The translations under genes were made by a program, and so were the position numbers. DNA of 32,900 nt from a virus: IMG/VR virus record IMGVR_UViG_3300003690_000210, positions 1 through 32,900 of that record; one strand, given 5' to 3'. Under the pieces are notes generated by a model that made no database searches, was not told where the DNA came from, and saw only the letters and a program-made list of their open reading frames with translations. This document shows positions 10,153 through 26,116 of this stretch, piece after piece (within the stretch, counting starts at the first letter, position 1; every line of letters starts with the position of its first letter).

Positions 10153-12510
10153 ATGGATGCGTCAGATCCAATCGTCAGTTGGTCTGCGTTTGAGCTTGAA
10201 CGCCGGTTGAAACGAGCCGACACCCTCAAGGAGAAGGCAGCGGTATGGCGTGACGCCGACCGGGCGAGACGCGACCCGGAGTTCCTCGCCCGACTCGCCG
10301 AGATTGCCCAGAAGGGACGCTTCCAGAGCGGCGGATGGGGCGCTGCCCAGTGGGGCCTCGCGGGCGCGACGATGGCTCCGATGTTGCCCGTCGTGGGTGC
10401 GGCGTTGGGGCCGCTGGGGATACTCGGTGGCCTCGGTCTCGCCGGTCTCGGCGCCCTGAATATCAGGGAGGGGTTGCAGCGTCGAGCGGACGAGATTCCA
10501 GGCGCTGGGATGCAGATGGGGGTCGGGGCGCTGGATGTAGGGCTTCCCTTCGCTGGCAGGGCCACCCGATTGCTGAGAGGGTTGAGAGGCGCGAAATCGC
10601 TTCCGCCATCATCGAAATTCCCACCTCTGGCTAAACGTGGATTTAGCTACCCCATGGCAGGTCCACAACGAGCGACTCCTACGGCTCACCCCTTCTTTGC
10701 AGAAGCGGGGGTCCCCAAAACGCAGTATGCCGCTGGTGTAGGGGGTGCGTCGAGGGTCGCCAAGGAGGCGATGGAAGAAGGGTTGGGCCAGGTCGAATCA
10801 TGGCCCAATATGTGGAGAAGACTTGGCGGCTTACCCCCTTCAAGTCTGAGGCCAGGTGGAATCACGCCAGGGGTTGGAAGTGGAACCGTTGGGAAACCAA
10901 CGGCGTACATCGGAGATCCTCGCGTGCCAGCACTCGGGTTCCAGCCAGCGGTCAGATATTCTGGTGCCCCTTCTCCACCTTTTGGTCCACGAGTACAGAC
11001 GCAGCCACCCCCACGAGGAAGGCCCATTCGCGCAGGGGTGACACCGCTCCAGGAACAGAAGTTTCCAGTGCCCGAGTGGCTCAAGCGTGGGGAAGCTCCG
11101 CCGCCAGCCGCAGGCGCAGCGCCTCAACCAGTCCCAGCACCTGCACCTCTAGGGACACCTGTAGTGCGGCCAACCACCGCACCACGAGCAGCACCTGTAC
11201 CCCCGTCTCCACCACCCGCCGCCACAGGAGCTGCATACACCCTCCCGGCAGCATTGGCACGGGCGGCACCACGGTACAGAAATGCGACGTTGGCGTTCGA
11301 GTCGGACCTGGATAAAGCCCTGTACATTGTACGGAACAAGAAGACCCGATCAGCGGCAGATGAGAAGTTCATGGCGTCCCTACGGAAACAGTTTCCAGGG
11401 GAATCCGATGACGCGATTCGGGCGAAGGGGGACGCGGTCAATGCTCGGCTGAAAGGTCTCACACCAGATGACACAGGGAACATCGTGGTTCCCCACACGG
11501 CTGGCGCAGCGGCACGCGCTAGCAGAGCCGCAGTGCCACAGCCACTCCCACCCGCACCCACAGCCGCAGCCGCTACCGCAACTGGGGCGGCTGGCGCTCC
11601 CACCATGGGGATTGCAGGGGCCGTCACGAGAGTGGGGATGGGATTAGGGGAGGGTGTTGAATCCTCCCGCCTCAGACCGAGTCTTGACTGGTGGCTGGAG
11701 CGGATGAGTAAGACGAGGGACGTGACACCTGAAAATATGCCTGAACTCATGATGGCGCAGGCCCTGGGACGACCGGAAAGCGCCAAACTCTTGGCTCGGG
11801 GTGTCCCTGGGCGACCCCCCGCGAGTGGCAAGCTATATCGACCCTTAAAGGTGACGGGCAAGATTCGCGAAATGACGGCGTCTGACAAAACCATGGAAGG
11901 ACGCCGTCTACCAGGGTGGCGCGGGGCTGAAGAAGTGCTCGTGTCGGACACCAGTCACAGCGCCAACGAGTTCCTCGCCACGGTGACCAAGGCCGAGAGG
12001 GCCGCTGTCGAATCCGAACTGCTTACCAGCAAGCACATGCTATTCGCAACACGCTTCGGTGGCGTCAAGCCGGCAAAGGGATCAGAACACTACACGGAGT
12101 ATCTCCTCGGTCTGTCGGGGCTTGTGCTCAAGAACCGTGTGAAGTCGGCGACGAAGATTTTACAGGAGATGGGCCTTCTCACCCCTCAAATGGAGAGGCG
12201 CCTCGCAGAAGTGGCTGAAGAAGGCTACCAGCGGGCGCAGCACGGATTTGCGACGACTGGATTCCAAACACTTGACCCACGGGGTCTAGAGCCCTTGGTC
12301 GGAAAGCAGGTGGGATCCAGGTATCGTCCCCATCGTCAGCGTGCCGGGGCGGGTGCCACGGAAGCCGAACTGCGCCCGATGGGAGAGACCATGGTCAACT
12401 ACATCAACAGCCTGCAAAAGCTCTTGGGGTCTCTCGGGATGCTCTTCGCCAGCGTCTTTACTGCCGATCAACTGCTTCCACAGGGAGGTGCCCGTGCCGC
12501 CGTTGGTTAG
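10153..12510 (+). CDS. Large virion protein with glycine-rich hydrophobic segment (785 aa)
   Basis: The ATG lies one nt after the previous TGA. Residues about 55-115 form a long Gly/Ala/Leu/Pro hydrophobic stretch (GWGAAQWGLAGATMAPMLPV and onward) able to insert in a membrane. Residues 215-370 are Pro/Ala-rich and low complexity. The last 250 residues are a helical domain ending in another hydrophobic stretch (LLGSLGMLFASVFTAD). This fits a protein ejected to form a DNA channel through the envelope, as internal proteins of podoviruses do, but it is not recognised by sequence. The following gene starts inside it. Confidence 0.55.
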   Translation: MDASDPIVSWSAFELERRLKRADTLKEKAAVWRDADRARRDPEFLARLAEIAQKGRFQSGGWGAAQWGLAGATMAPMLPVVGAALGPLGILGGLGLAGLGALNIREGLQRRADEIPGAGMQMGVGALDVGLPFAGRATRLLRGLRGAKSLPPSSKFPPLAKRGFSYPMAGPQRATPTAHPFFAEAGVPKTQYAAGVGGASRVAKEAMEEGLGQVESWPNMWRRLGGLPPSSLRPGGITPGVGSGTVGKPTAYIGDPRVPALGFQPAVRYSGAPSPPFGPRVQTQPPPRGRPIRAGVTPLQEQKFPVPEWLKRGEAPPPAAGAAPQPVPAPAPLGTPVVRPTTAPRAAPVPPSPPPAATGAAYTLPAALARAAPRYRNATLAFESDLDKALYIVRNKKTRSAADEKFMASLRKQFPGESDDAIRAKGDAVNARLKGLTPDDTGNIVVPHTAGAAARASRAAVPQPLPPAPTAAAATATGAAGAPTMGIAGAVTRVGMGLGEGVESSRLRPSLDWWLERMSKTRDVTPENMPELMMAQALGRPESAKLLARGVPGRPPASGKLYRPLKVTGKIREMTASDKTMEGRRLPGWRGAEEVLVSDTSHSANEFLATVTKAERAAVESELLTSKHMLFATRFGGVKPAKGSEHYTEYLLGLSGLVLKNRVKSATKILQEMGLLTPQMERRLAEVAEEGYQRAQHGFATTGFQTLDPRGLEPLVGKQVGSRYRPHRQRAGAGATEAELRPMGETMVNYINSLQKLLGSLGMLFASVFTADQLLPQGGARAAVG

Positions 12511-19983: not shown

Positions 19984-20003
19984 TTTAGCAGTCGACTGCT
20001 AAA
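19984..20003. promoter_or_regulatory. 20-bp perfect palindrome, operator candidate upstream of recT
   Basis: TTTAGCAGTCGACTGCTAAA reads the same on both strands. On the minus strand a T-run precedes it and an AT-rich TATATC (a possible -10) follows about 11 nt after it. No T-run follows on the transcribed strand, so it is not an intrinsic terminator. It fits a dimeric repressor site controlling recT and the replication genes. Confidence 0.6.
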
Positions 20004-20633: not shown

Positions 20634-20795
20634 CTAGTGATCGTCTTTCAGGTCCCCCTTAACCTGGACCGAGAATCTCGTCAGCAGCCCGGCCCCGTAG
20701 GCGCAGAAAATCCCAGCCAGCGGAGACCACTCCCACCCGGCTCCGACGATCGCAAGCCCGATGATTGCAAGAGGGACGGCTCCCAACGCCGACAT
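20634..20795 (-). CDS. Small two-helix membrane protein (putative holin)
   Basis: The 53-aa frame from ATG 20795 has GGAGG upstream and overlaps the previous stop (TGATG). It has two hydrophobic helices (AVPLAIIGLAIVGAG; PLAGIFCAYGAGLL) with a Trp-Glu-Trp turn and a charged tail (VKGDLKDDH). Size, topology and position just before the M15 peptidase fit a holin. The odd point is that it lies in the early leftward operon. Confidence 0.6.
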   Translation of the reverse strand: MSALGAVPLAIIGLAIVGAGWEWSPLAGIFCAYGAGLLTRFSVQVKGDLKDDH

Positions 20796-20938
20796 CACGC
20801 GTCCTCCGTCAGCGGGATCGGCACGCGCAGCCGCTCGCATTCGCAGCCGTTCGGCTGTCCGATGGGGAGGCCGCAGCCACCGCAGCAGGTCGGTGGTTCG
20901 TCGTCGTCGTCCGGTGGATCGATGGTGGGTTCAGGCAT
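20795..20938 (-). CDS. Tiny Cys-rich zinc-binding protein (47 aa)
   Basis: An acidic Pro-rich head (PEPTIDPPDDDDEPP) is followed by a cluster TCCGGCG ... GCEC that holds five Cys, enough for one zinc ribbon. The ATG has GGAGAA upstream and overlaps the preceding gene by 8 nt; its TGA overlaps the holin ATG. No family is known to me; a small nucleic-acid or protein binder is possible. Confidence 0.6.
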   Translation of the reverse strand: MPEPTIDPPDDDDEPPTCCGGCGLPIGQPNGCECERLRVPIPLTEDA

Positions 20939-21086
20939 CGGGGTTCTCCAGCATGGCGTAGTCTGGCTCTGTGGGCTCCCATCCGCAGGATGGGCAGCTC
21001 CACCATGGCGCCTTGTTCAGTGGGGTATCGCATTCCGGGCACTCCTCCGCCTGGTCTTCCGGTGGGTCCAGTGGTGGCTCACTCAT
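20931..21086 (-). CDS. Tiny zinc-ribbon protein (51 aa)
   Basis: The frame from ATG 21086 overlaps genes on both sides by 8 nt. It carries two classic knuckles, CPECD and CPSCGW, with 12 residues between them, a treble/ribbon zinc fold. Its acidic head (SEPPLDPPEDQAEE) resembles that of the next gene, so the two may be duplicates. Confidence 0.6.
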   Translation of the reverse strand: MSEPPLDPPEDQAEECPECDTPLNKAPWWSCPSCGWEPTEPDYAMLENPDA

Positions 21087-21339
21087 CGTCCAGCTCCTTG
21101 AGCAGGGCCGCTCCGTCCATCGGCCAGGGATGGCTACGCCAGATGGCTAGGCACAGCCGTTCCGCTTGGTCGGAATCCATAGGGACCAGCTCCCCGCCGC
21201 GCTCCTTGAGATCCTCCGCGTGTTCCGGCCAGGTCGACACGCTGACGCACCAGCGAAAACCGTGCGGGTATGCCGCCACATCGTAGGTGGCGTCCATCAG
21301 CGTCTTCACCAGCTCCAAGGTCATCATCTTCTCAGCCAT
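21079..21339 (-). CDS. Small hypothetical protein (86 aa)
   Basis: The ATG at 21339 has GAGGAGGAGG upstream; longer frames to 21495 are rejected because they cover no ribosome site. Mixed alpha/beta with several Trp residues (FRWCVSVSTWPEHAEDLKER) and an acidic C-terminus. No family is recognised. Confidence 0.55.
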   Translation of the reverse strand: MAEKMMTLELVKTLMDATYDVAAYPHGFRWCVSVSTWPEHAEDLKERGGELVPMDSDQAERLCLAIWRSHPWPMDGAALLKELDDE

Positions 21340-21364
21340 CCCTCCTCCTCTCGGTCGGTCTGTG

Positions 21365-21562
21365 TTAACAACAATCTGCACGGGGTTTTCTGTAACAGAG
21401 TCTCTCCTGCTTTTGGCGAGACTGCTCGAGCGCCCACTCGTCCTCTTCGAGTGCCGCGTCCTTCGCCTCAGCCTCACGCCGCGCCGAGAGCACACGGTAG
21501 ACTCGCTCGATCTGATCGTGCTGCTGCGCGATCTCCTGGGCCGTCTGCTCGTCGTTCTTCAT
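21365..21562 (-). CDS. Small coiled-coil protein (65 aa)
   Basis: ATG 21562 follows GAGGAGG. The product is a single charged helix rich in Gln, Glu and Ala (TAQEIAQQHDQIERVYRVLS) with a Cys-Cys end. It probably makes a dimeric coiled coil. No family is recognised. Confidence 0.5.
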   Translation of the reverse strand: MKNDEQTAQEIAQQHDQIERVYRVLSARREAEAKDAALEEDEWALEQSRQKQERLCYRKPRADCC

Positions 21563-21564
21563 GG

Positions 21565-21783
21565 TCAGTCCTCCTCGGTCAGGACGACCACCCACCGCCC
21601 GGCGTGGATGTCAGCCTGGTCTGCGTCGTCGCCTGTGCCCTGGGCCAGCAGCTCGGCTCGCGCACCAGCGATGGCGGCAAGCGCCTCCTGTGCGGTGGCG
21701 TAGGTGCCCATCGGTAGCTCGCCCACGCCGTCCGCACTACGCCATAGCAGTGCTACCCCCTTCTCTGCTCGCTGCCCACTCAT
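21565..21783 (-). CDS. Small hypothetical protein (72 aa)
   Basis: ATG 21783 overlaps the previous stop (ATGA). Product MSGQRAEKGVALLWRSADGV, then a helix (TAQEALAAIAGARAELLAQG) and a final strand (GRWVVVLTEED). Only a weak GGTGG stands upstream, so translation is coupled. No family is recognised. Confidence 0.5.
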   Translation of the reverse strand: MSGQRAEKGVALLWRSADGVGELPMGTYATAQEALAAIAGARAELLAQGTGDDADQADIHAGRWVVVLTEED

Positions 21784-22139
21784 CGAACCACCACGCCCCT
21801 GCGAGTCGCTCGCCAGCCTTGGATCGTCCAGCCGTAGCTGTAGATGTCCCACTCGGTGATGAACCCCTCCAGCTGCGCCAGCATCTCGACGTGCGCCTGG
21901 TCGTCGGCGGTCGTCTCCGGGTCATCCGGCTCGCGGTAGTCAACTCTGCCCGCCGCCGTGATCCACCGCTCGCCACTGGTGGAGCCTTGCCAGCACGACC
22001 AGCTCTCTGCCGCCAAGTGGCCGTCCGAGTAGAGCGTCACGTCCCAGCCTGCAGAGGTGCAGTCGGTCGGGTCGTAGGTCTGGGTCGAGGTGATCCGGCG
22101 GGTACTCAGCCTGGGTTGTCGCTCGCTCGTGTCTGCCAT
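21780..22139 (-). CDS. Small hypothetical protein with MADTSER start (119 aa)
   Basis: ATG 22139 has AAGGAGGAG upstream. The first residues MADTSER are shared exactly with the gene at 24061. The middle is beta-rich (WDVTLYSDGHLAAESWSCWQ) and the end is helical and acidic, then basic. No family is recognised. The 100-nt spacer in front of it is a relative of that at 23695-23794. Confidence 0.55.
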   Translation of the reverse strand: MADTSERQPRLSTRRITSTQTYDPTDCTSAGWDVTLYSDGHLAAESWSCWQGSTSGERWITAAGRVDYREPDDPETTADDQAHVEMLAQLEGFITEWDIYSYGWTIQGWRATRRGVVVR

Positions 22140-22239
22140 GGTTTCTCCTCCTTGGTCTGTCTGGGCGTTCGCTGCCCCCGCCACGGCGCCCCGTGAGACG
22201 CCCTGGGAGGGGCGGGGACCGGAGCCCCCGCCCTGTCTG
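22140..22239 (-). repeat. 100-nt intergenic repeat, copy 1, with hairpins
   Basis: It fills exactly the spacer between a TAG stop and the ATG at 22139. In gene direction it begins CAGACAGGGCGGGGG, forms a GGGCGGGG/CCCCGCCC hairpin (22210-22233) and a second GGGC/GCCC hairpin (22163-22177), and ends in AAGGAGGAG. Copy 2 at 23695-23794 has the same length and the same conserved ends, but a diverged middle. Confidence 0.7.
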
Positions 22240-22386
22240 CTAGGCTGTCCGCTGGAAGGCGAGCCCCTCGCCACGCCTCCACTTGGCCGCCTGACGTGTG
22301 GTCGGCTCGATCTGTGCCGCACGGCACGCAGCGCGGAACTGTGTGTCTGTCTCTGCGAATGTTGTATTTGTTACTCTGTCAGCCAT
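22240..22386 (-). CDS. Small basic protein (48 aa)
   Basis: ATG 22386 with GAGGAGGA upstream. Reads MADRVTNTTFAETDTQFRAA, then a basic helix-turn-helix-like end (EPTTRQAAKWRRGEG). It may bind nucleic acid. No family is recognised. Confidence 0.5.
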   Translation of the reverse strand: MADRVTNTTFAETDTQFRAACRAAQIEPTTRQAAKWRRGEGLAFQRTA

Positions 22387-22397
22387 GCGTCCTCCTC

Positions 22398-22424
22398 GTC
22401 TGGGCGTTCGGTGCCCACTCATCT
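22398..22424 (-). repeat. 27-nt leader repeat, copy 1
   Basis: Identical over 27 nt to 23159-23185. It contains GGGC-ACCGAAC-GCCC, a 4-bp stem with a 7-nt loop, about 10 nt upstream of the ribosome site of the small gene. Confidence 0.8.
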
Positions 22425-22485
22425 GCGTGACCGTCACAACGGGCGAGCCCCAGTGATCCGGGCTCGCCCGCTCGAGCTGTCACGC
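22425..22485 (-). terminator. Strong GC hairpin after stop codon
   Basis: CGGGCGAGCCC (22440-22450) and its perfect complement (22460-22470) enclose a 9-nt loop; an outer GCGTGAC/GTCACGC pair (22425-22431, 22479-22485) frames it and overlaps the upstream stop. No T-run follows, so it may be a weak terminator, a processing site or an RNA stabiliser. Confidence 0.55.
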
Positions 22486-22740
22486 TAGGTCGCGACGGGA
22501 CCTTGCGGAGTCTAGGCTTTGGTGGTCGAAGTCGACCACGGTTTGCAGGTTCTGGATTTGTTCATCCAGCTCGCCGATTCTATCGTCCTCGTCGTCCTCG
22601 TCTCGGGCGGTCCAGCTGTTGTCCGCTTCGATACGAGACCTGAGTGATTCGAGCTTCTCAATCGCAGCGTTCACGTCTCCCACTGCCTCATCATAGTAAC
22701 AACTCGGGGTCACGGTGCCGTCTTGGTTTGGGTAGATCAT
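22480..22740 (-). CDS. Acidic coiled-coil small protein (86 aa)
   Basis: ATG 22740 has GGAGG upstream and overlaps the previous stop (ATGA). After MIYPNQDGTVTPS the protein is one acidic helix (DVNAAIEKLESLRSRIEADN, then DDRIGELDEQIQNLQ). No family is recognised. Confidence 0.55.
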   Translation of the reverse strand: MIYPNQDGTVTPSCYYDEAVGDVNAAIEKLESLRSRIEADNSWTARDEDDEDDRIGELDEQIQNLQTVVDFDHQSLDSARSRRDLA

Positions 22741-22844
22741 GCCTGCCTCCGTTCTGCCGTTGATGTTGCCCTCGACGCCCGGTGACGGTCGGCGTTGGCC
22801 TTCGTGTGCATCCAGGTGATCAGGAGATCGGTCGCGAGGCTCAT
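22737..22844 (-). CDS. Tiny protein (35 aa)
   Basis: ATG 22844 follows AGGAGGAG and overlaps the previous TGA; its own TGA overlaps the next ATG. The product starts MSLATDLLITWMHTKANADR and ends in a basic Arg/Ala/Ser helix. It lies in a chain of ATGA overlaps, which supports real translation. Confidence 0.55.
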   Translation of the reverse strand: MSLATDLLITWMHTKANADRHRASRATSTAERRQA

Positions 22845-23074
22845 GTCTCCTCCTGTACGATGCGCTTCCATGTCACCCGGTCGCGTCGATATCTCGCGAC
22901 GATGACCGCTTCTTCGTGGAGCCGATCAGCGGTTCGTTCCACGTTGTCGCATTCGCCACAGACAGCCCCAGCCAAGTTCCACGCGATGTCCATCAGCGCG
23001 GCTTTGGACAATCGGTCGAGGTGTCGTTCGATGTCGTCCGGCACGAAAACCGGAGCCTTGGTGCCTAGTCTCAT
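22841..23074 (-). CDS. Small protein with CxxC (77 aa)
   Basis: The ATG at 23074 has AGAGGAC upstream and lies 5 nt after the stop of a 21-aa frame. Starts MRLGTKAPVFVPDDIERHLD, then a helix with CGEC (DIAWNLAGAVCGECDNVERT) and a basic end. Possible half zinc site. No family is recognised. Confidence 0.5.
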   Translation of the reverse strand: MRLGTKAPVFVPDDIERHLDRLSKAALMDIAWNLAGAVCGECDNVERTADRLHEEAVIVARYRRDRVTWKRIVQEET

Positions 23075-23079
23075 GCTGA

Positions 23080-23145
23080 TCAGTCCTCTCGCTCGTCTAC
23101 CGCTCGCTCGTCGTCTACTACCGCCGCTCGCTCGTCGTCTGCCAT
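23080..23145 (-). CDS. 21-aa acidic leader peptide with DDERA repeats
   Basis: ATG 23145 has one of the best ribosome sites in the region (AAGGAGGT). The 21-codon frame reads MADDERAAVVDDERAVDERE with one further Asp and stops 5 nt before the next ATG. Twice-repeated DDERA and the shared MAD start suggest a truncated cassette or a leader peptide that couples translation of the 77-aa gene. Confidence 0.5.
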   Translation of the reverse strand: MADDERAAVVDDERAVDERED

Positions 23146-23158
23146 GGTTGACCTCCTT

Positions 23159-23185
23159 GTCTGGGCGTTCGGTGCCCACTCATCT
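23159..23185 (-). repeat. 27-nt leader repeat, copy 2
   Basis: An exact copy of 22398-22424, directly after the stop of the DUF2958 gene and before the 21-aa frame. Includes the GGGC-ACCGAAC-GCCC hairpin. Confidence 0.8.
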
Positions 23186-23482
23186 CTATTGCTGCAACTC
23201 GCGCAGGGTCTGCGGCGTGTAGTGCCGGTCTCGCTCAACCGGCAGACCCAACTTGCCGCGAACAGCCATCAACTCGGTGAGGCTGAAATAGCCTAATTCC
23301 GCGCACCCTTGCCCGCTGTCCACGTATCCGAAGAAAGTGTCAACGCCGTCGTACTCCTTCGCGAACCACGTCCAGCTAGAATCCGGCGTGAAAAACTTCA
23401 CCGTGAACTTCGCGTTGGCGTCGCCGTCAGTGGCGTAGAGTGGCTGCAATACGGCGCGGTTGGCCTTCGTCAATAGCATCAT
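23186..23482 (-). CDS. DUF2958 protein
   Basis: A 98-aa protein that matches DUF2958 along its length: LLTKANRAVLQPLYATDGDA, KFFTPDSSWTWFAKEYDGVD, FFGYVDSGQGCAELGYFSL, TELMAVRGKLGLPVERD. The family is found on phages and mobile elements and its function is unknown. The ATG at 23482 overlaps the stop of the upstream gene (ATGA) and has GGAGGT upstream. Confidence 0.85.
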   Translation of the reverse strand: MMLLTKANRAVLQPLYATDGDANAKFTVKFFTPDSSWTWFAKEYDGVDTFFGYVDSGQGCAELGYFSLTELMAVRGKLGLPVERDRHYTPQTLRELQQ

Positions 23483-23694
23483 GGTTGTACCTCCACAGAC
23501 ACCGCGATCATTTCGGCTTGCTCGTGGTCGTTCTCGCAGTAGATTCTAGTTAGGTCTGACCCGACCCACACGCCGTCTGACATGACATCCTTACAGTCAG
23601 CGGAGAGGACGAGCTTGTCGAGATATTCTTCGCGTGTCGCCTGTATCCGCCCCCCGCAGATGGGGCACTCCGCTCGCTCGCTCGCTTGTGCCAT
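23479..23694 (-). CDS. Small zinc-knuckle protein (71 aa)
   Basis: ATG 23694 with GAGGAGGA upstream. Starts MAQASERAECPICGGRI; CPIC is the first knuckle, and later Cys (ADC, YCEND) with His may complete the site. The MAxxSER start is shared with neighbours. No family is recognised. Confidence 0.55.
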   Translation of the reverse strand: MAQASERAECPICGGRIQATREEYLDKLVLSADCKDVMSDGVWVGSDLTRIYCENDHEQAEMIAVSVEVQP

Positions 23695-23794
23695 GCGTCC
23701 TCCTCGGTCTGTCTGGGCATCAGTGCCCCCGCCCCAACGCCCGCAGGCGCTCGGGTGGAGGCACGGGGGCCGGAGCCCCCCCCCGCCCTGTCTG
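23695..23794 (-). repeat. 100-nt intergenic repeat, copy 2
   Basis: The same length and ends as 22140-22239: CAGACAGGGCGGGGG directly after a TAG, a G-rich/C-rich hairpin with CTCCGG in the loop, a second hairpin GGGCA-CTGA-TGCCC (23715-23728) and CCGAGGAGG before the ATG. It also contains a 9-C run. Confidence 0.7.
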
Positions 23795-24061
23795 CTAGAG
23801 GTTCTGTACGTCCACCGCCCAGTGTGCGATCTCATCGCGCACCTGGACGACCGTCTCGATCCGTGCGGCGTGTTCCTCGCTCGCTGGCGCCCAGGTGTCC
23901 GGCGAGACGTAGTAGTCTCGCTGATGCGGGCGCATCGCGCAGAGTGTCTCCAGCGCGGCGTTCAGGGCGCTGTACGCCGTTTGTGCGTCCTCGACCAGAC
24001 GCTGCCGACTACTGCCGTTCGGGTGGATGGTCGGGAGTGTTCGCTCGCTCGTGTCTGCCAT
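23795..24061 (-). CDS. Small hypothetical protein with MADTSER start (88 aa)
   Basis: ATG 24061 with GAGGAGAA upstream. Starts MADTSERTLPTIHPNG and continues as a helix with Ala, Glu and Leu (RLVEDAQTAYSALNAALETL). No family is recognised. The 93-nt gap before it (24062-24154) holds a GC-rich tract, a CCACGG/CCGTGG hairpin (24111-24125) and no convincing gene. Confidence 0.55.
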   Translation of the reverse strand: MADTSERTLPTIHPNGSSRQRLVEDAQTAYSALNAALETLCAMRPHQRDYYVSPDTWAPASEEHAARIETVVQVRDEIAHWAVDVQNL

Positions 24062-24154
24062 GGTCAGTTCTCCTCTGCGGTGGCGTAGCAGCACTCGTCG
24101 ATATCGTGCTCCACGGATACCGTGGCGCGGAGCTCGTGCCCCGCCCCGCCCCGC

Positions 24155-24409
24155 CTAGTACCAGTCCGGGTCCTCGCCGTCGTAGGTGCCGGGTCCGGCC
24201 AGCTCCTCGTAGTCGGCCCGCGTGCCCTGCCCCTCGGGGCGTAGGCCGCACTGGTCACGGAACCGTACGCGGGCGCACAGCTCGCACAGCACGCCCGCGT
24301 AGACGCCGTAACTGTACCGACGGTCGACCGTGTCGTTTCCGTGGCACCGCTCGCACCGCTCGTCATCTGACGGCTCGGTGATCGTGTCGTCCGGTCGCTC
24401 ATCTGCCAT
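24155..24409 (-). CDS. Small zinc-finger protein (84 aa)
   Basis: ATG 24409 with GGAGGA upstream. MADERPDDTITEPSDDERCE, then CERC ... CELC about 22 residues apart, forming a four-Cys zinc site around YSYGVYAGVL, and an acidic tail. A compact treble-clef or ribbon. No named family. Confidence 0.6.
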   Translation of the reverse strand: MADERPDDTITEPSDDERCERCHGNDTVDRRYSYGVYAGVLCELCARVRFRDQCGLRPEGQGTRADYEELAGPGTYDGEDPDWY

Positions 24410-24443
24410 GTGTCCTCCAGTGCTGCGCGGGAATGCGCCCGCC

Positions 24444-24480
24444 CGGACCGGCGTGGCACCGCGTCGGCCACGCCGGTCCG
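24444..24480 (-). terminator. Perfect 14-bp inverted repeat between genes
   Basis: CGGACCGGCGTGGC (24444-24457) and its exact complement (24467-24480) enclose a 9-nt loop, right after a stop codon and before the leader of the 84-aa gene. A second hairpin GCGGG/CCCGC (24427-24442) follows. No T-run, so termination is uncertain. Confidence 0.6.
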
Positions 24481-24492
24481 AACTGATGCACC

Positions 24493-25164
24493 TCACACTT
24501 TCCGTAGCTTGTCGGGTTGGAATGCCACGGTCACCGCCGGACCTTTACAGATGTCACAGGACCGCCCGCGCGACCCGTGGGTATAGCACTGGACCCCTTC
24601 AGACCACTGTGCCGGGCAGGGCACCACGCGGACGCCGTCGACGGTATACGCCTGCCGACTGGGGTGCCTCTCCGGGACCGCGTAGGCTGTGGCTGTGTAG
24701 CCTTGCGCCAGTGCTGCCGCGACGTCAGCACCGGAGTGGATCGACGCCATCACGCGGGCGCCGTGCCACGCTGAGTAGGGGACCGTCCGCCATGCGTGCG
24801 TATACGTCCACGCCTTCATGCCGCCCCTGGATTCATAGCGGACCATCGCCGCGCCGATCAGCCGGGCAGCCGAGACGGTCCGGCAGTCGCCAACGACGTG
24901 TACACGGAGGTCGCGGTTGCCCTTCAGACGGTCTATGCCGGCCGCTTCAAGCCGCGCAATCGCGACACTCGACGAGAGCGGGTTTGAGTTGAGCCGTCGT
25001 GTCGTATAAGGCTGCATGCCGATTGTCTCCGCGTAGCATCCCGCACCGAGGAGCTGACAGTCGGACGGACACGTTACTTGAGATACAGACGTCGCCGCAC
25101 ACGGTCCGGTCTTCCGATTGCGCGAGATCGCGACCACTGCGACGGGCGATCCTGAGATCTTCAT
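24493..25164 (-). CDS. Cys-rich phage protein of unknown function (223 aa)
   Basis: ATG 25164 overlaps the previous stop (ATGA); a GTG at 25176 would add four residues. The N-terminus has KTGPCAATSVSQVTCPSDCQ with GCYAE nearby, then LRVHVVGDCRTVSAARLIGA, KAWTYTHAWR, and C-terminal Cys pairs (CPAQ, CYTHGSRGRSCDICKG). Similar proteins occur in other phages (recalled, not searched). The Cys pattern suggests metal binding, perhaps an Fe-S or zinc site. The largest gene of the small-gene array. Confidence 0.6.
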   Translation of the reverse strand: MKISGSPVAVVAISRNRKTGPCAATSVSQVTCPSDCQLLGAGCYAETIGMQPYTTRRLNSNPLSSSVAIARLEAAGIDRLKGNRDLRVHVVGDCRTVSAARLIGAAMVRYESRGGMKAWTYTHAWRTVPYSAWHGARVMASIHSGADVAAALAQGYTATAYAVPERHPSRQAYTVDGVRVVPCPAQWSEGVQCYTHGSRGRSCDICKGPAVTVAFQPDKLRKV

Positions 25165-25478
25165 GCCTGTACCCACTTTGTGGTCCGCTTGTGGAGTGCT
25201 TTAGATCCGTAGTCGAGCTCGGCGCCTTTACTGTCGAGCATCGCGTCCAGGATCCACGGTCGACCCTTGCCGTACTTCGCGCTGGCTGTGTCGACCAGAC
25301 TCCGAAAACATGTCTCGCATACGACGCTGGCCTTGTGCTTCTCCGTGTCCGTAAATAGGATCGTCTTGCCCGTGTCGAGTACGTGCTGACAGTCCGGACA
25401 GAATATCGCCCGCTGGACTGCGTACCGCACCGCTTGCCGTGAGAGTGTACCTGCGAGCCTCTCGAGTAGATCTGCCAT
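25161..25478 (-). CDS. Small zinc-binding protein (105 aa)
   Basis: ATG 25478 follows AAAGGTGGAA. Basic helical N-terminus (MADLLERLAGTLSRQAVRYA), then CPDC and CETC about 25 residues apart for one zinc, and a basic C-terminus (SKALHKRTTKWVQA). No family is recognised. Confidence 0.6.
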   Translation of the reverse strand: MADLLERLAGTLSRQAVRYAVQRAIFCPDCQHVLDTGKTILFTDTEKHKASVVCETCFRSLVDTASAKYGKGRPWILDAMLDSKGAELDYGSKALHKRTTKWVQA

Positions 25479-25525
25479 GGTTCCACCTTTGGTTGCGCCC
25501 GGACTTGGGACCGGGCCGTGGTTTA

Positions 25526-25543
25526 CACGGGCCTGAGCCCGTG
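25526..25543 (-). terminator. Short 7-bp GC hairpin after stop codon
   Basis: CACGGGC and GCCCGTG with a 4-nt loop lie 8 nt after the stop of the 74-aa gene. A second hairpin GCCCGG/CCGGGC (25497-25516) precedes the next ribosome site. No T-run. Confidence 0.45.
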
Positions 25544-25551
25544 CCCTCACC

Positions 25552-25776
25552 CTACCCGATATGCCCATCCATCAGTAGTTCTTGTGCGCCGTAGACTGTA
25601 TCGCCACCGCAGTCCTCGCACGGGTAGCGCCTTGCGTCGGGCTCCGTCTGATACCGTTCCGCCCCGCAGGCAAGGCAGTACCCGATATCCTCAAGACTGG
25701 TACCGAGAATGATCGACGTGGGTACCTGTACCGTCCGGCCTTGCGTTGTTGTGAGTGTAAGTGTTTCTTCTGCCAT
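25552..25776 (-). CDS. Small zinc-ribbon protein, first gene of the leftward operon (74 aa)
   Basis: ATG 25776 with AAAGGAGAAACC upstream and a hairpin (25793-25808) before it. A beta-rich head (MAEETLTLTTTQGRTVQVPT) is followed by CLACG and CEDCG, a zinc ribbon. As the first gene after the control region it is probably transcribed earliest. No family is recognised. Confidence 0.6.
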   Translation of the reverse strand: MAEETLTLTTTQGRTVQVPTSIILGTSLEDIGYCLACGAERYQTEPDARRYPCEDCGGDTVYGAQELLMDGHIG

Positions 25777-25917
25777 GGTTTCTCCTTTGGTTGCGCCAGT
25801 CGCGGCGCCCTGCTAGGTTCTAGAGTGTCTTCCACCTTAACATGTTATCAATGCGTTATGCAAGCTGTGCTCAAGTGGAGGTGGCGCCCACGCACGATCT
25901 TGCCCTATCTCGGGTTC

Positions 25918-26097: not shown

Positions 26098-26116
26098 GGG
26101 GGGGGGGGGGGGGGGG
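26098..26116 (+). repeat. 19-G homopolymer tract
   Basis: An unbroken run of 19 G, with G6 at 26085-26090 and G5 at 26121-26125 nearby. It lies 53 nt before the rightward -35. It may form a G-quadruplex, vary in length, or mark a poorly resolved assembly position. Confidence 0.9.

Follow-up and report, generated by a model that had tools for sequence, protein, structure and literature searches.

The 32,900-nucleotide window analysed here (IMG/VR record IMGVR_UViG_3300003690_000210, positions 1 to 32,900) is a single whole virus contig of 32.9 kb. TerL and the portal gene lie on the plus strand, while the minus strand holds the early region, whose genes include RecT-like, exonuclease and replication genes. 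The early genes are small, occur singly or as coupled pairs, run from position 25776 towards lower coordinates and are separated by spacers of 40-100 nucleotides (nt); these spacers, and in particular a twister ribozyme located before the gene starting at 25478, are the subject of this report. A TerL search returned 50 relatives, and several relatives have retained part of the early gene set between 25776 and about 14200. No nucleotide or TerL relatives of the window were found in the isolate collection INPHARED. Between 19.0 and 26.4 kb we found no sigma-70-like promoter on the minus strand, although other promoter types of a host would escape this search, and no intrinsic terminator (GC stem plus U-run), the sole such site being on the other strand. 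The lack of detected promoters and U-tract terminators on this strand is in line with one long transcript. The features at the head of the early region are as follows.

25552 to 25776, minus strand: first early gene, 74 amino acids, with homologues in loci L055, L010/L011 and L060
25499 to 25551, minus strand: twister-P5 self-cleaving ribozyme (Rfam RF02684, 59.2 bits, E 8e-11)
25526 to 25543, minus strand: stem P1 (CACGGGC UCAG GCCCGUG), a perfect 7-bp stem seen in the RF02684 alignment and in a stem scan
25524 to 25525, minus strand: predicted scissile U-A step adjoining P1, placed by comparison with the twister consensus (PMC5408937)
25497 to 25516, minus strand: extended stem P4 from the RF02684 alignment, 7 nt 5' of the Shine-Dalgarno sequence of gene 25478; this is the hairpin noted at this start in the initial annotation
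25161 to 25478, minus strand: small early gene, 105 amino acids, 3' of the ribozyme and joined by an ATGA overlap to a DUF7227 gene (24493-25164)

The ribozyme occupies the spacer from the stop codon of gene 25776-25552 to the start at 25478. The RF02684 match spans the full model (positions 1-58) and its score of 59.2 bits compares with a gathering cut-off of 37.6; a model derived from the window copy together with 27 phage copies gives 68 bits at the same position. Because the TAG stop codon (25554-25552) ends at 25552, the ribozyme begins at the very next base. The conserved core is present (GAGGG, the UAA cleavage strand and CGGUCCCAAG-CCG), as are stems P1, P2 and P4, with P2 being GGU/ACC, a compensated form of GCA/UGC that other copies have too. 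With regard to the long-range pseudoknots T1 and T2 of this type, candidate bases are present as GGG within GAGGGC and CCC in loop L4. Judged by family membership, in sequence and in structure alike, the 25478 spacer is clearly assignable to twister type P5. There is no second twister in the window: when the model that includes the window copy was run with filters off, the rest of the window scored at most 8 bits, and the other leaders are therefore not recognisable twisters. A search of 21.7-25.9 kb against Rfam at E<=10 revealed no ribozyme match besides RF02684.

Twister-P5 ribozymes are arranged in arrays in other phages. IMG/VR was scanned twice by exact pattern and the resulting contigs were searched with RF02684, so that the counts are lower bounds; some of the matches score below the gathering threshold. 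The two scans gave 59 contigs, all of which contain RF02684 (80 matches in 17 contigs in the first scan and 141 in 42 in the second), with about 220 copies altogether. At least five copies are present in 19 contigs, the largest number being 20, in one 90-kb contig, followed by 15 and 14; arrays of 5-20 copies are represented by L100, L101, L102, L103, L091, L104, L105, L106 and the contigs behind L122, L129 and L139. None of 14 control genomes contains RF02684. In a first set of 67 copies from 11 contigs, the stop codon of an open reading frame lies upstream of 64, at a distance of at most 6 nt in 53, and a Shine-Dalgarno sequence and start codon follow within 70 nt in 64; both flanks are found together in 61 of the 67. 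Random same-strand positions have both flanks in 18.5% and the tight version of this arrangement in 4.4% of cases. In a second set of 66 copies, 59 have both flanks and 50 the tight version. Across five arrays a twister is present in 38 of the 40 gaps longer than 25 nt and in none of the tight gaps between coupled genes. For example, L100 contains eleven small genes (53-239 amino acids), nearly all directly adjacent, with one twister before each, and the next ribozyme mostly overlaps the stop codon or starts a few bases past it. The genes that follow the twisters in these arrays are mutually unrelated and mostly without known function.

When 28 copies were aligned, 94.5% of cells were paired and changes on both sides were seen at 12 of 15 pairs, giving a covariation score of 0.646 versus 0.177 when shuffled. 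As read from this alignment, the twister-P5 stems covary strongly across the phage copies. One TerL relative of the window (G010; L034, 299-357) has a weaker twister-P5 (38.5 bits) before a Shine-Dalgarno sequence and ATG in its early region; core bases are changed in this element, which may be a decayed copy. The exact pattern also occurs in seven contigs of bacterial metagenome-assembled genomes, and three of those genomes have 2-4 twister-P5 elements each. When two natural copies were used as BLAST queries, named phage isolates gave no convincing match, and we found no account of twister-P5 arrays in phages in the open literature, a coverage that did not include the original twister paper.

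The remaining early spacers were brought to attention by the initial annotation, which described seven starts (25776, 25478, 24409, 23694, 23145, 22386 and 22139) as having the same layout of a short hairpin, a ribosome site and ATGGCA or ATGGCT. All seven are present at these positions on the minus strand, with the hairpins 5-10 nt before the Shine-Dalgarno sequence and not 10-20 nt as had been given. The proposal that the sequences differ while the fold stays fails for four of the seven leaders: those of 22139, 22386 and 23145 match the 19-nt pattern GGGCANYGAACGCCCAGAC exactly, and that of 23694 is a variant of it. Three exact matches were reached in 0 of 100 shuffles. These four leaders have GGGC...GCCCAGAC in common, and GCGCAACCAAAGG (repeat family D8) is common to the leaders of 25776 and 25478. 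The argument against one recent duplication fails for at least two spacers, those of 22139 and 23694 being diverged copies. That the leader hairpins belong to one RNA family was rejected, as sequence repeats dominate their alignment (A2), which has no varying shared fold. Taken alone and compared with mononucleotide shuffles, only the 25478 hairpin reaches p=0.01, and several have z of about 0. Nor is the layout universal, since the ATGGCA start at 24061 has a spacer without a comparable short hairpin and the ATGGC starts at 21339, 19928, 18542 and 16221 have no leader hairpin. The seven leaders do not form one single element. They are real, and the suggestion that selection maintains an RNA element, for instance one for processing, was correct for 25478, while for the other six, which match no Rfam family, it is unproven. 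The idea of a cassette system for small genes is borne out by the twister-P5 arrays of other phages, whereas the window itself has one twister. Uniformity was overstated, and the ribozyme and the long hairpins right after stop codons had been missed. The spacers other than that of 25478 contain the following elements.

25793 to 25808, minus strand: hairpin GCGCC/GGCGC before the Shine-Dalgarno sequence of 25776, with a 3' flank, GCGCAACCAAAGG, that matches the twister flank
24410 to 24492, minus strand: spacer before 24409 with a 14-bp hairpin (24444-24480) and a short hairpin (24427-24442); z -3.7
24062 to 24154, minus strand: spacer before 24061, a start absent from the initial list, with several hairpins and an outer closing pairing; z -2.8
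23695 to 23797, minus strand: spacer before 23694, including the stop codon, with a predicted three-way junction; diverged copy of 22140-22242
23146 to 23185, minus strand: short spacer before a 21-codon open reading frame, with the GGGCACCGAACGCCCAGAC hairpin alone
22387 to 22479, minus strand: spacer before 22386 with an 11-bp hairpin (22440-22470) and then the GGGCACCGAACGCCCAGAC hairpin; z -2.4
22140 to 22242, minus strand: spacer before 22139, including the stop codon, with a hairpin (22210-22233), a long arm and GGGCAGCGAACGCCCAGAC; copy of the 23694 spacer

Considered as whole stop-to-start units, the eight spacers of the window are more structured than background, with a mean dinucleotide-shuffle z of -2.05 versus -0.23 (standard deviation 1.57) for 120 random same-strand segments. 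Enrichment of perfect stems of at least 7 bp is seen between 20.6 and 26.2 kb (9 observed, with 3.3 expected) but in no other part of the window, and long stems lie just 3' of stop codons at 22210-22233, 22440-22470, 24444-24480 and 25526-25543. In the folds predicted before 24409, 24061, 23694, 22386 and 22139, bases near the stop codon pair with bases near the Shine-Dalgarno sequence to close the element, as exemplified by the GGUGC/GCACU pairing in 24410-24492. The spacers of 22139 and 23694 have an identity of about 85% across some 100 nt, and as the genes flanking them are not paralogous, the spacer was copied independently of the genes. A three-way junction and a long arm are predicted in both despite the diverged arm sequence; retention of this junction is only suggestive, being based on two sequences whose aligned pairs differ in register. 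A model of the duplicated spacer found no convincing relatives over 51 loci, the best outside score being 18.9 bits (L025) compared with 105 and 102 for the two copies.

Two further candidates were rejected. Decayed twisters were sought in the other spacers with the model from 27 phage copies and the window copy, and none was found. The leaders of 22386 and 23145 contain a hammerhead-like GATGAG, of which the rest of the core is missing and which has no Rfam match. Two spacers start with TAGCAGACAGGGC, which resembles TAGCAGAGGGC, the sequence with which many phage twisters begin.

Contrary to the view that no named equivalent exists, several known systems resemble these arrangements. Twister ribozymes have been reported near phage genes with an unknown role, and both twister and hammerhead ribozymes are enriched in the vicinity of phage genes and of other ribozymes (PMC10085705, PMC4604425). 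In the twister type P5 literature we did not find a description of the slot between stop codon and Shine-Dalgarno sequence in a phage early operon, or of arrays of up to 20 copies. The closest precedent is provided by clustered hammerheads that flank single prophage genes. Perreault et al. 2011 (PMC3088659) suggested that these divide long phage transcripts into mRNAs of one gene each, and the hammerheads cut a native polycistronic RNA of ~2 kb in vitro (PMC3088659). The early region of the haloviruses HF1 and HF2 has a hammerhead 13 nt ahead of a start codon, and the mapped 5' end is at most 3 nt from the cut (PMC3088659). The twister arrays of other phages are similar in that several self-cleaving ribozymes flank phage genes, while the window has one copy. 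They differ in ribozyme class, in having one copy per gap that abuts the upstream stop codon, and in being far longer. T4 promoter-early stem-loops (PeSLs), promoter-terminator cassettes according to Arbiol 2010 and Comeau 2014 as cited in PMC4503421, are likewise described there as small stem-loop cassettes that recur in the gaps between small early genes; in contrast, the window spacers have no detected minus-strand promoter or U-tract terminator. In cluster K mycobacteriophages, the start-associated sequences SAS and ESAS are recurring motifs and inverted repeats found immediately ahead of the starts of small non-structural genes (PMC3203893). SAS is a fixed 13-mer, GGGATAGGAGCCC, that contains the Shine-Dalgarno sequence, and the authors of that study are sceptical that ESAS form RNA hairpins (PMC3203893), whereas the window motif has another sequence and lies upstream of the Shine-Dalgarno sequence; GGGATAGGAGCCC within 3-7 nt of a start is absent from the window leaders. 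Ribozyme-punctuated arrays of small phage genes are kin to the hammerhead precedent, and novelty, which the initial annotation overstated, should be claimed with care.

On the basis of its sequence, the twister before 25478 would cleave the RNA that contains it between U and A at 25525/25524. In type P5 a loop closes P1, and cleavage would therefore leave P1 at the end of the upstream RNA and P4 near the beginning of the downstream RNA. The 3' end of the upstream mRNA would thereby consist of hairpin P1 and carry a 2',3'-cyclic phosphate. The downstream mRNA would have a 5'-OH end, with hairpin P4 just ahead of the Shine-Dalgarno sequence. Since the arrays in other phages place a twister at nearly every non-coupled gap, the likely job of these ribozymes is to cut a polycistronic early transcript. 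Each resulting mRNA would carry one gene or one gene pair, have its ends protected by hairpins and be translated from a start of its own. In the window the array is mixed, with one twister and structured spacers in the same slot, and we infer cleavage in this phage, segmentation of the mRNA as its benefit and a related role for the other spacers, which probably serve the same end by means of other elements (processing or end-stabilising hairpins). On balance we consider it fairly probable that this is an early operon with folding RNA spacers, in which one twister-P5 segments the mRNA and the other spacers probably act to the same end. The parts of this that are shown are the family membership and placement of the ribozyme, the arrays elsewhere, the covariation and spacer structure above background.

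Several points weigh against such a scheme. A recognised ribozyme is present in just one of about eight window spacers, and the twister is absent from 27 of the 28 related records searched. Two relatives, G007 and G008, appear to fill similar gaps with terminator-like U-run hairpins before some Shine-Dalgarno sequences, which indicates that the slot need not mean ribozyme cutting and that different elements fill similar slots. In addition, the literature calls the biological role of twister ribozymes unclear (PMC5408937). Among the early genes of TerL relatives, U-run terminator-like hairpins stand directly before Shine-Dalgarno sequences in L016 (leaders 5687 and 2503) and L021 (7896).

The non-twister spacers could represent processing or stabilising hairpins, protein-binding sites or new ribozymes. 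Action of host RNases is a possibility to be taken seriously, if held tentatively: the 8-14-bp stems after stop codons would be 3'-protective or RNase III-type structures and the short hairpins would guard the new 5' ends. T7 early mRNA is a parallel for spacers processed or stabilised in this way. The long perfect stems right after the stops at 22210-22233, 22440-22470 and 24444-24480 would fit this explanation, as would the folding of the spacers above background and the lack of U-tracts, which means that the stems are not classic terminators. However, 8-14 bp is short for typical RNase III substrates, and processing does not follow from stem strength alone. Somewhat more doubtful is that the short hairpins of the GGGC...GCCCAGAC type before the Shine-Dalgarno sequence are sites of protein binding and translation control, or inverted repeats in DNA, with the twister being incidental. 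GGGC-N-GCCCAGAC precedes a Shine-Dalgarno sequence and start at four places in the window and at two in the related phage G003; 834 kb of loci contain 13 matches, of which 9 are near starts, some of these being overlapping copies of one site. An AGAC outside the stem is conserved, as would be the case for a recognition site, and the spacer of 23145 and those of G003 have this hairpin alone without a long stem. On the other hand, the core stem is invariant and hence offers no covariation to demonstrate an RNA fold, the element was not found by pattern elsewhere in IMG/VR (its wider relatives being the short hairpins of G003 only), and it leaves 24409, 25776, 25478 and the long hairpins after stops unexplained.

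It is unlikely that the spacers are primarily recombination joints for shuffling small genes in the manner of T4 PeSLs, with any RNA role being secondary. The diverged copies at 22139 and 23694 between unrelated genes and the RecT-like protein encoded by the phage are compatible with this idea, but there is just one clear duplicated spacer, the search for early promoters detected none within the spacers, and the array twisters differ in sequence yet keep their pairs, which shared joints would not need. We think it distinctly improbable that self-cleaving ribozymes of one or more undescribed kinds make up the spacers 22140-22242 and its copy 23695-23797, 22387-22479, 24062-24154 and 24410-24492, taking the slot of twister-P5 and forming a mixed array that cuts the early transcript between genes. 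Least probable is that this is ordinary GC-rich intergenic DNA with chance hairpins, in which ATGGC and a Shine-Dalgarno sequence are a common start context: most leader hairpin energies do equal those of shuffles and ATGGC starts are frequent in relatives as well, but the twister E-value of 8e-11, the repeated sequence motif, the spacer z values and the confinement of stem enrichment to 20.6-26.2 kb argue against it, and for 25478 chance is already refuted.

Returning to segmentation of the early transcript by a ribozyme, the phage arrays offer a concrete and testable case of co-transcriptional cutting into single-gene mRNAs for a ribozyme whose natural role has been called unclear. If it is true that the other folded spacers also cut, the slot could be used for finding new ribozyme classes; searching such slots is the strategy that yielded pistol, hatchet and twister-sister.

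Among the other small early proteins, that encoded at 23186-23482 has a clear match to DUF2958 and that at 23479-23694 a weak, below-cut-off match to the restriction alleviation protein Lar; the open reading frame at 23145 comprises merely 21 codons and may be no gene. Repeats of ACGAGCGAGCG are found straight after ATGGCA in three genes (minus strand 24052, 23135, 23111 and 22130), and similar ACGAGC repeats occur in G003 (L068, about 10960-11000 and 10750-10780), where they are 5' of the hairpin and outside genes. The G003 contig (39,088 bases) has its end sequence repeated (left end of L035, right end of L068), which suggests a complete, circularly permuted genome. A run of 19 G (plus strand, 26098-26116) in the divergent early/late region could be a true homopolymer or an assembly artefact. 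Finally, a perfect 20-bp palindrome, TTTAGCAGTCGACTGCTAAA, is located at 19984-20003 upstream of the RecT gene (19928) and is likely to be the operator of a second early transcript.

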